This document shows, one piece after another, positions 12,605 to 15,766 of a stretch of 41,851 nt of DNA (position 1 is its first letter; every line of letters begins with the position of its first letter). Source of the DNA: Bacteroidales bacterium (GTDB taxonomy: Bacteria; Bacteroidota; Bacteroidia; Bacteroidales; UBA7960); NCBI GenBank assembly GCA_007130125.1, contig SLSZ01000143.1, positions 1 through 41,851 on the forward strand, written 5' to 3'. The notes below the pieces were generated by a model. That model worked only from the letters and a program-made list of their open reading frames with translations. It was not told the origin of the DNA and made no database searches. Made by a program: the position numbers and the translations under genes.

Positions 12605-15190
12605 TCACTCCACTTTTTTTACCACAGCACTTATTTTCGAAGCATCTTTTATCTGGAATACTTTACCGCTATATGCTGGGGAAATATTCTTTTTTGTATG
12701 CTTTTCAGTAGTGGCTGCTCCTCCGACAAGCAATGGTATGCGCAAGCCTTTTTCTTCAAGCAATTCGGCAACTTTTACCATCTCGTGCAGGCTTGGAGTT
12801 ATAAGGCCACTTAACCCGGCTATATTGGCGTTTGTCTCTATTATTTTTTCAACGATTTTATCTGCCGGCACCATTATACCCATGTCAATCACTTCATATC
12901 CGCTGCATTCAAAAACTATAGAAGCAATATTTTTCCCTATGTCGTGAACGTCACCCTCTACCGTTGCAAGAACAACTTTCCCTTTTGAGCTGCTTTTTGT
13001 TCCTGTTTCAGAATGCATGTGTGGTTGTAATGTATCAACAGCCTTTTGGAAAACTGTTGCACTTCTTATTACTTGTGGCAGGAACAGTGTCCCATCGTCA
13101 AATCTTGTGCTGATTTCCTCCATTGCAGGCATTAGGATTTTCTCTATGATCTCATATGGGTTTTCAAAACTTTGAACCGCTTCTCCCATATCCTCTTCCA
13201 GATAATCATTAATACCATTGATCAGCGAATACTTTATGCGATCTTTAGCATCATGTTCGCGCCAAGATTTCCTGGTTTTAACTGCTTTTTTGGTTGAGTT
13301 TGAGCTTGCGTAATTCATCAACTCTTCCATTGCTTGCTGATTATCATCAAATACAACAGCTTTAGCAAGCTGTAAAAGTTCTTCGGGTATATTGTTATTG
13401 TTTATTTCAGCAGGGTTGATGATTGCAAATTTAAGTCCGGCATCGCATGCGGCTTTAAGAAATACCTGGTGAAGTGCCTTGCGTGGCTTGTTTGCACCCC
13501 TGAGTGCAAAAGATAAATTGCTTATACCTCCAACTATATTACATTTCGGAAAATGTTTCCTGATATATTTGCAAGTTTCTATGAAGCTGACAGCTTGATT
13601 TTCACCATTGCTTAAACCTGTTCCAACAGCCATAATATTGGGGTCGAAAACAATTTCTTCCTGATGGTAGCCCGCTTTTTCTGTTAATAATTTATAGCTT
13701 CTGTTGACTATTTCTGTTCTTCTGGCAGTGTTGTGTGCTTGCCCTTTTTCATCAAACAGCATGATAGTCGCAATGGCTCCAAACCTTTTTATTTCTCTTG
13801 CTTTTTTTATAAAAGTTTGTTCGCCGTCTTTCAGCGAAATACTATTAACAATAGGTCTTCCTTGTATGCATTGCAATGCGGAAGTTATTGTTTTGAAGTC
13901 GGACGAGTCGATCATTACCGGCAGTTTTGCAAGTTCCGAGTTTGTACTCAGAATTGCCAAAAAATCCCTGATAGCTTCCGAGGAGTTAACCCCGGCTGCA
14001 TCCATGCAAATATCAAGCATATCAGCTCCGTCTTCTATTTGTTGGTATGCTATATCTAAAGCTTCACGGTAATTTTTTGAATTTATTAGTTTAGAAAACC
14101 TTTTTGAACCTGATACATTTGTTTTTTCTCCAATGTAAACAAGTTCTTTTTTATTGTTTATTTCAAAAGTATCAAGCCCAGCCAGTACCGTTTGTTTTTC
14201 TATGTTGTTTGGCTTGAATGGTTTATATTTTTCTGCCAGTTTTGAGAAAGCTTCAATGTGTTCGGGTGTTGTACCACAGCAACCACCAACAATATTTATG
14301 TTTCCTTTTTTCAGTATTTTTTCAAGGTGCTTTGCCATTTTTTTTGGTGACTGGGTGTATTTCCCTTCATGGTCCGGAATACCGGCGTTTGGATGGAAAG
14401 ATATAAAGCAAGAAGCTTCTTTCGTTAATTCTTTAACAAAAGTTTCCAGTTCTTTTGCACCAAAGCCACAGTTTAACCCAACAGACAATAAAGGATTGGC
14501 ATGCTTAACTGAATGATAAAAAGCCTGCACGTTTTGTCCTGAAAGAATTCTTCCGGATTCACCTGATATGGTTGCGGATATCATTACAGGCAAGCTTTTA
14601 TTCTTTGCCTGTAAAACTTCATCAATGGAATAAATTGCTGCTTTGGCATTTAGAGTGTCGAAAATTGTTTCAATCATCAGTATGTCGGCACCGCCGTCCA
14701 CAAGTCCTTCAACTTGCTCTTTGTATGCTTCGGCAAGTTCATTAAAGTCCAGGCTTTTGCTGCTTTGTTCCTTCGACTGTAATGACATTGAAAGTGACTT
14801 TGATGTTGGGCCTATACAACCGGCAACAAACCTTGGCTTGTTTGTTGAGGAGTATTCTGATGCTGCCTTTTTGGCTATCTGGCTGGCTTCCAGGTTTATC
14901 CTATAACACAGGTGTTCTGTTTTATAATCTTTTTGTGATATTGCATTGCCACTGAAAGAGTTTGTAGTTATGATATCTGCTCCTGCTTCAAGGTATGAAG
15001 CATGAATATCATATATCATTTCCGGACAATACAGGTTAAGTAATTCGTGATTGCCTTTGAGTTTAATCTTGTGATCCTTCAATTCGGAACCCCGATAATC
15101 ACTTTCACCTGGTGCTTTTTGTTGAATAAGCGACCCCATCGCTCCATCCAAAACAAGTATTCTCTCGCTTAATATTTCTTTTATCAACAT
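12605..15190 (-). CDS. metH: Cobalamin-dependent methionine synthase, form lacking the C-terminal reactivation domain
   Basis: LDGAMGSLIQ; VGGCCGTTPEH (Zn cysteines); pterin-binding NVSGSKRF; B12 domain DVHDIGKNI; ends after the B12 domain at 861 aa. Confidence 0.94.
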   Translation of the reverse strand: MLIKEILSERILVLDGAMGSLIQQKAPGESDYRGSELKDHKIKLKGNHELLNLYCPEMIYDIHASYLEAGADIITTNSFSGNAISQKDYKTEHLCYRINLEASQIAKKAASEYSSTNKPRFVAGCIGPTSKSLSMSLQSKEQSSKSLDFNELAEAYKEQVEGLVDGGADILMIETIFDTLNAKAAIYSIDEVLQAKNKSLPVMISATISGESGRILSGQNVQAFYHSVKHANPLLSVGLNCGFGAKELETFVKELTKEASCFISFHPNAGIPDHEGKYTQSPKKMAKHLEKILKKGNINIVGGCCGTTPEHIEAFSKLAEKYKPFKPNNIEKQTVLAGLDTFEINNKKELVYIGEKTNVSGSKRFSKLINSKNYREALDIAYQQIEDGADMLDICMDAAGVNSSEAIRDFLAILSTNSELAKLPVMIDSSDFKTITSALQCIQGRPIVNSISLKDGEQTFIKKAREIKRFGAIATIMLFDEKGQAHNTARRTEIVNRSYKLLTEKAGYHQEEIVFDPNIMAVGTGLSNGENQAVSFIETCKYIRKHFPKCNIVGGISNLSFALRGANKPRKALHQVFLKAACDAGLKFAIINPAEINNNNIPEELLQLAKAVVFDDNQQAMEELMNYASSNSTKKAVKTRKSWREHDAKDRIKYSLINGINDYLEEDMGEAVQSFENPYEIIEKILMPAMEEISTRFDDGTLFLPQVIRSATVFQKAVDTLQPHMHSETGTKSSSKGKVVLATVEGDVHDIGKNIASIVFECSGYEVIDMGIMVPADKIVEKIIETNANIAGLSGLITPSLHEMVKVAELLEEKGLRIPLLVGGAATTEKHTKKNISPAYSGKVFQIKDASKISAVVKKVE

Positions 15191-15444
15191 AATTTATTGT
15201 AATTAATTTATCGTTAATAATTTATATTTCTTTTAAATTCCATTGAAAACACAGATGTTTTCTATTTGCAATTTGATTTTTTTTTGGATTAATTTTTTAC
15301 AGCTGTTGTTTGCTGGTTTTCCGGGTGTTTTTTTGTTACTCTAAAGGCAATGATTAAAAAATATAACAGATAAGGTTGTTCTGGAATATTTAATTATTAC
15401 CGTTGAAAGTTAGGGTAAGAAAGAAAACTCCCGGGCCTTATTAG

Positions 15445-15582
15445 TCAGTTGACGCGCATATAGCGCATAAACATGCACATATGGGATGATGCTAAGGTTG
15501 GCATATGCCGTATAATCACGTTGACGGCAATTAATAGCTGATTTTTTAATAAAAAACCGTAACTCAAAAAAGAATTTTTCAT
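15445..15582 (-). CDS. Candidate Met-rich leader peptide between the SAM riboswitch and metH
   Basis: ATG...TGA, 45 codons: MKNSFLSYGFLLKNQLLIAVNVIIRHMPTLASSHMCMFMRYMRVN; 5 Met in the last 19 residues; not in the supplied ORF track. Confidence 0.5.
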   Translation of the reverse strand: MKNSFLSYGFLLKNQLLIAVNVIIRHMPTLASSHMCMFMRYMRVN

Positions 15583-15608
15583 GATAATTGGTTTTCAAGT
15601 TTATAATT

Positions 15609-15714
15609 CCTTTAAAAGGCAGGTTTTAGCACCTTTTCTCAAGCGAGAAGGTTGCTAGAGCTTCACAGAGCCTGTTCTCTCAGCTCTTCTTTATAAATCA
15701 AACCCTTTTGAAAG
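15609..15714 (-). ncRNA. SAM-I (S-box) riboswitch upstream of metH
   Basis: Reverse complement AAGAAGAGCTGAGAGAACAGGCTCTGTGAAGCTCTAGCAACC...AAAAGGTGCTAAAACCTGCC matches the SAM-I core order (agaGag..GGcu...gaa.Cu.GCAACC....AaGGUGCuAA.uCC); closing stem CTTTcAAAAGG / CCTTTTAAAG. Confidence 0.85.
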
Positions 15715-15735: not shown

Positions 15736-15766
15736 CAAAAGTATAAAAAAAATCTTTTACAGCAAA
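15736..15766 (-). promoter_or_regulatory. Bacteroidetes sigma-ABfr-type promoter for the riboswitch-metH transcript
   Basis: Minus strand TTTG (15766-15763), 19 nt, TACTTTTG (15743-15736): matches TTTG-N19-TAnnTTTG. Confidence 0.75.

Follow-up and report, generated by a model that had tools for sequence, protein, structure and literature searches.

In the trp, his and leu attenuators of Proteobacteria, a short ORF lies early in the transcript, codons for the pathway amino acid cluster at its end, a hairpin overlaps them, and a biosynthetic gene follows. Leader peptides were previously known only from Proteobacteria and Actinobacteria, to which a survey in 2010 added Firmicutes (PMC2965389). 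Attenuation by leader peptides has been put forward as a mechanism for amino-acid operons of Flavobacterium psychrophilum (PMC9723704), and B. thetaiotaomicron has been noted to carry small ORFs within long 5′ UTRs (PMC7366714). Among riboswitches, translational SAM-I elements have the RBS within the 3′ side of P1 (Barrick and Breaker, 2007; PMC2258182), and the SAM-II aptamer of the S. meliloti metA leader controls translation at a distance (Scheuer, 2022; PMC9373788). The B12 riboswitch of M. tuberculosis ppe2 acts via a uORF, with a 4-nt overlap between the uORF stop and the gene start (Kipkorir, 2024, reviewed in PMC12713380). The Cys codons of uORFC-8-2, a leader ORF before cysS in Rhodobacterales, are a proposed tRNA sensor (PMC8632094).

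The locus described here, a SAM-I riboswitch followed by a Met-rich leader ORF and metH, lies in a window of 41,851 nt (the whole stretch of DNA analyzed) from a Bacteroidales bacterium, and shares features with each of these systems. It has all of the above features of the trp, his and leu attenuators, but entry into the leader is apparently gated by a SAM-I aptamer, the control codons are Met and/or Cys, and an intrinsic terminator can be recognized in only some of the loci compared. The aptamer family and the start-codon spacing past P1 are those of the translational SAM-I platform, whereas the first start codon is that of a leader peptide and not of the enzyme gene (PMC2258182). As in the ppe2 relay (PMC12713380), the riboswitch would act through uORF translation; however, uORF stop and gene start are here usually ∼40–350 nt apart, and the leader contains control codons for amino acids. 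The ppe2-type arrangement, a uORF stop overlapping or adjoining the gene start, is not met in the window, where 254 nt separate the leader stop from the metH start codon. The S. meliloti metA leader also resembles the proposed arrangement in having a terminator between two start codons, but differs in its aptamer class, its in-frame second start and its lack of a Met-rich leader peptide (PMC9373788). The leader-ORF Cys codons of uORFC-8-2 are comparable to those reported below, but there is no riboswitch, and both the phylum and the gene are different (PMC8632094). The earlier note on this DNA knew of no SAM-I riboswitch combined with a Met leader peptide, and none was found in the open-access papers searched, subscription papers being mostly uncovered; the combination, as well as Met as a control codon, appear to be new.

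The metH Leader and Its Source Genome

The SAM-I riboswitch aptamer (15699..15598, minus strand) scored 81.2 bits for RF00162 (gathering score, 44.4), and matched the covariance model over its full length (model positions 1–108), from which SAM binding is inferred. A candidate Bacteroidota-type −7 promoter box, TACTTTTG (15736..15743, minus strand; consensus TAnnTTTG), was located 44 nt upstream of the aptamer by pattern match only. The A/U-rich P1 of the aptamer closes beside the start of a leader ORF of 45 codons plus stop (15582..15445, minus strand), a counterpart of which follows most SAM-I aptamers of type B (see below). Its product, MKNSFLSYGFLLKNQLLIAVNVIIRHMPTLASSHMCMFMRYMRVN, agreed exactly with the ATG frame that the earlier note had placed between the riboswitch and metH, as did the count of five Met in the last 19 residues, four of them within HMCMFMRYM; the distance of about 27 nt between riboswitch and ATG had to be corrected to 15 nt, measured from the Rfam 3′ end of the aptamer. 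The candidate control codons form a cluster, M-C-M-F-M-R-Y-M (15457..15480, minus strand). Among the 229 ATG ORFs of 20–80 aa in the window, the leader ORF alone exceeded two Met over the final 12 codons, where it has four, a count that 1017 stop-free shuffles of its own letters never reached. Searches of the leader peptides against Pfam and NCBIfam yielded no meaningful family, a Pfam MtN3_slv match (E 0.006) being below the cut-off and judged to be chance.

The presumed regulated gene, metH (12605..15190, minus strand), was identified by its ORF and Pfam domains and encodes 861 aa. The protein ends after the B12-binding domains, and the C-terminal activation domain was not represented among the matches listed.

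One further SAM-I riboswitch is present in the source genome, and the short ATG ORF directly behind it ends in the same manner. The peptide, MKNRSLLFFRKKSFFYYYSIVFHMPMEMR, ends in FHMPMEMR, and the gene downstream is presumably, from reading its sequence, homocysteine-biosynthesis-like. Neither HisG nor TrpE (Anth_synt_I_N) was detected in this 92%-complete genome (G000); the source organism may therefore be a His and Trp auxotroph, and its His and Trp leaders were unusable as a same-genome comparison.

Leader ORFs Across Bacteroidota SAM-I Loci

The main set consisted of 140 SAM-I loci from the family, order and class of the window, sorted only by the 5′ strand of P1 into type A (P1 starting CTTAT; 39 loci) and type B (A/U-rich P1; 101 loci, almost all of them belonging to the order of the window). 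A hairpin and U-run adjoining the aptamer (≤−10 kcal/mol, within 110 nt) occurred in 74% of type-A and 12% of type-B loci. A short ATG ORF was present in 83 of the 101 type-B loci, with AAA or AAG as second codon in 38 of the 83. The type-B ATGs clustered 10–14 nt past P1 (73 in this bin, compared with 3 to 9 per bin between 20 and 49 nt), and the median P1-to-ATG spacing over the set was 12 nt.

Within the last 12 uORF codons, 168 ATG were in frame, compared with 8 and 9 in the other two frames and 17.3 ± 3.8 in letter shuffles, and Met made up 16.9% of the last 12 residues but 1.3% of the remaining ones. The prediction that frame and Met cluster would be conserved in relatives was borne out: two or more Met occurred among the final 12 codons in 55 of the 83 type-B uORFs (1.3 expected), and 24 of 39 families had at least one Met-cluster ORF. 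Examples of leader endings, each running up to the stop, are NNFLHKVHMAMPMPGC, FIMPLMPMCMR, SMRMRRSLRMR, SSMDMRCMR and HMFMRCMRSMLS. No short ORF was found in 18 of the 101 type-B loci, others had an ORF without the cluster, and the frame was lost in one member of the window's genus (L025). As for the control sets, Met clusters were absent from five type-A short ORFs and from six near TPP riboswitches. The leader ORF satisfies the attenuator criterion of being short and having a cluster of control codons for the pathway amino acid. That a conserved coding leader is real can be regarded as nearly certain as far as sequence comparison goes, and it is on such comparison that the ORF, its fixed start and its in-frame cluster rest.

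Sorted by target gene, two or more Met or Cys were present among the final 12 codons at 30 of 37 metY, 8 of 11 aspartokinase and 10 of 28 metH loci of the main set, as well as before a few homocysteine-biosynthesis, metX and metF genes. Thus metH, the target originally proposed, is among the targets but as a minority, the main one being metY. A screen of named genomes for metH, made with a crude pattern and not a covariance model, found few further riboswitch loci on this gene.

At the level of the phylum, loci L297–L323 belong to another SAM-I group, with a P1 ending in GATGATG(G/T) directly followed by TATGCATGCC or ATGCAT, and with ATG codons inside or beside P1. The best-scoring phylum-level loci had a different P1 type and no evident leader of the Met-cluster kind.

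Coding Signal and Cysteine Variants

In pairs of close relatives, changes in the last 15 codons numbered 113, 117 and 206 at codon positions 1, 2 and 3, and 40% of the changed codons were synonymous, compared with 20% expected from single random changes. This signal derives mostly from one sister genus, and the pairs are not independent. The synonymous-site bias that had been anticipated was seen among close relatives but not in the window's own genus, where 3 synonymous and 22 non-synonymous changes gave no excess. Within that genus the leader peptide was not constrained outside its Met codons, and the four clustered Met were invariant in three relatives of equal length, compared with 2 of 10 other positions (Fisher p 0.015). 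The sister-genus metY leaders L003, L004, L007, L013, L014 and L015 have in common a conserved core resembling I-I-A-H-R-x-S-x-L-C before the C-terminal Met, which goes beyond what codon sensing would require.

Three SAM-I leaders in genome G198 end in FIPRMR, CCCCCCC and CCCFCCC. One of the Cys leaders (L251) precedes an operon that we take, from our own reading of the sequences, to contain a substrate-binding-like protein, SusC/D, a peptidase, a permease and a cystathionine beta-synthase-like gene, and the other one presumably precedes metY. The L251 operon (from 2657 on) is perhaps a sulfur-peptide uptake system. Outside the window's order, leaders ending in CMCMCCCCC, MCMCCCC and CMCCCIQ were found before metY-metX-homoserine dehydrogenase operons. 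The property shared among leaders is their sulfur amino-acid codons and not a peptide motif.

SAM Input

Six type-B leaders lacked a uORF and had the start codon of metH or metY itself at +10 to +15, the position occupied elsewhere by the uORF ATG; P1 therefore probably gates the ATG at that spot. We infer that P1 gates whichever ATG sits there and that the uORF, where present, relays SAM, and gating of leader initiation by P1 is considered likely. The criterion for a translational platform, a start codon just past P1 without an adjacent intrinsic terminator, is met.

RNA Structure After the Leader

Folding excess over dinucleotide shuffles (58 loci) peaked in 50-nt segments whose first nucleotide lay 20 or 10 nt ahead of the uORF stop, with a mean z of −1.46, and dropped to −0.43 for segments starting at the stop itself. 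Since this comparative peak precedes the stop, the 5′ arm of the hairpin would consist of the last codons, where a stalled ribosome would cover it. The attenuator criterion of a hairpin 5′ arm overlapping the control codons is met in these fold predictions, and also in the window, where a hairpin AUGCGC-UAUAU-GCGCGU (plus GUU:AAC) is predicted within the last leader codons (15448..15472, minus strand), in line with the class-wide structure peak at leader ends.

In the sister-genus metY leaders, a hairpin of −19 to −27 kcal/mol followed by a U-rich run began in the last leader codons at six of eight loci, and the same hairpin arm could pair instead with a segment ∼90 nt further on. The structure with the alternative pairing covaried (both partners had changed in 6 of 18 pairs; its score was reached by 0 of 500 shuffles), while the terminator pairing was kept in 92% of cells and its covariation was not significant. 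Set-wide, hairpins of ≤−18 kcal/mol before a U-run were found at 19% of loci compared with 2% in shuffles; a universal intrinsic terminator after the uORF is unsupported, a strong hairpin with U-run being a minority feature. The terminator candidates of the window were weak (−10.9 and −11.6 kcal/mol), the latter being an AUAAGG..CCUUAU stem followed by a U-rich stretch (15356..15444, minus strand), of low confidence and with approximate ends. With terminator-like hairpins strong in the sister genus, a minority in the set and weak in the window, the terminator is demonstrated only in part. Reinitiation from the uORF to the gene is unlikely, because the spacer is mostly ∼40–350 nt and the distance peak reported for Bacteroidetes is 11–14 bp (PMC4833913). 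Attenuation, although inferred, is the best-supported output.

Proposed Mechanism and Alternatives

On balance, the best reading of these loci is a SAM-gated two-stage leader-peptide attenuator, of which the output step in the window itself is the least certain part. In the first stage, bound SAM would stabilize P1, the 3′ strand of which forms part of the site where ribosomes land for the ATG ∼12 nt downstream, so that at high SAM the leader ORF would not be translated. In the second stage, at low SAM, ribosomes would enter the leader ORF and, with charged Met-tRNA (or Cys-tRNA in the Cys variants) plentiful, reach the stop and leave, upon which the hairpin whose 5′ arm is made up of the final ORF codons would form and transcription would stop. 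If the charged tRNA were scarce, a ribosome would stall on the Met/Cys cluster and cover the 5′ arm, and transcription would proceed into metH, metY and other targets. Output would be high only if SAM and charged sulfur-amino-acid tRNA were both low. Stalling is inferred and there are no expression data; transcription attenuation via tRNA-dependent stalling is nevertheless rather more probable than not. The two-input leader suggested in the earlier note is supported by the conserved frame and Met cluster, but the inputs look serial and not parallel. Met starvation would also lower initiation on the leader, which counts against the mechanism.

The uORF could instead be a mere relay of the riboswitch, in which SAM sets translation and translation itself blocks Rho or melts the RNA and thereby allows expression of the gene, the Met and Cys codons being incidental. 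The P1-to-ATG spacing, the precedent in M. tuberculosis (PMC12713380) and the minority of intrinsic terminators in the set are all compatible with this; however, it leaves unexplained the in-frame Met cluster, its placement at the ORF end, the replacement by Cys and the invariant Met positions, and we regard it as unlikely. Less probable still is a nascent-peptide sensor, with the leader peptide itself arresting the ribosome, perhaps as a response to SAM or methionine, instead of charged tRNA being read. Although some genera keep residues besides Met, as in NNFLHKVHMAMPMPGC and AHR.S.LC, the peptides are wholly different between families, poly-Cys replaces Met clusters, and sulfur amino-acid content is the only common feature.

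Stems of the form AUGCGC...GCGCAU at the ORF end of many leaders raise the question of whether the Met cluster merely reflects an RNA hairpin, with nothing translated. This is very improbable given the frame specificity of the ATG, the third-position excess and synonymous bias, the fixed ATG position with its AAA/AAG second codon, the Cys variants, and clusters without AUGCGC (MPLMPMCM, MAMPMPGC); as sole cause it is rejected on the frame-specific ATG counts. A chance ORF in the long 5′ UTR of a single MAG, to which only the weak peptide conservation outside Met in the window's genus would point, is hardly credible in view of the second copy in the genome, the 229-ORF and shuffle tests and the invariant Met positions, and conservation across families refutes a chance Met cluster.

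Significance

The attenuator reading extends, with somewhat better than even confidence, to a widespread serial AND gate in Bacteroidota, in which the SAM-I riboswitch would control ribosome loading and Met, Cys or mixed codons would read the charged-tRNA pool. If this is true, it would have no precedent known to us, either as a leader-peptide attenuator specific for Met or as a leader peptide placed under the control of a SAM-I riboswitch, and it would occur in a phylum in which amino-acid leader peptides are barely described. A single transcript would then read the end product (SAM) and next the translational supply (Met- or Cys-tRNA) in series, and the lack of a terminator in many Bacteroidota SAM-I leaders, as well as their distance from the gene, would be explained. 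The swaps between Met and Cys codons would make the sensed amino acid readable from the sequence.
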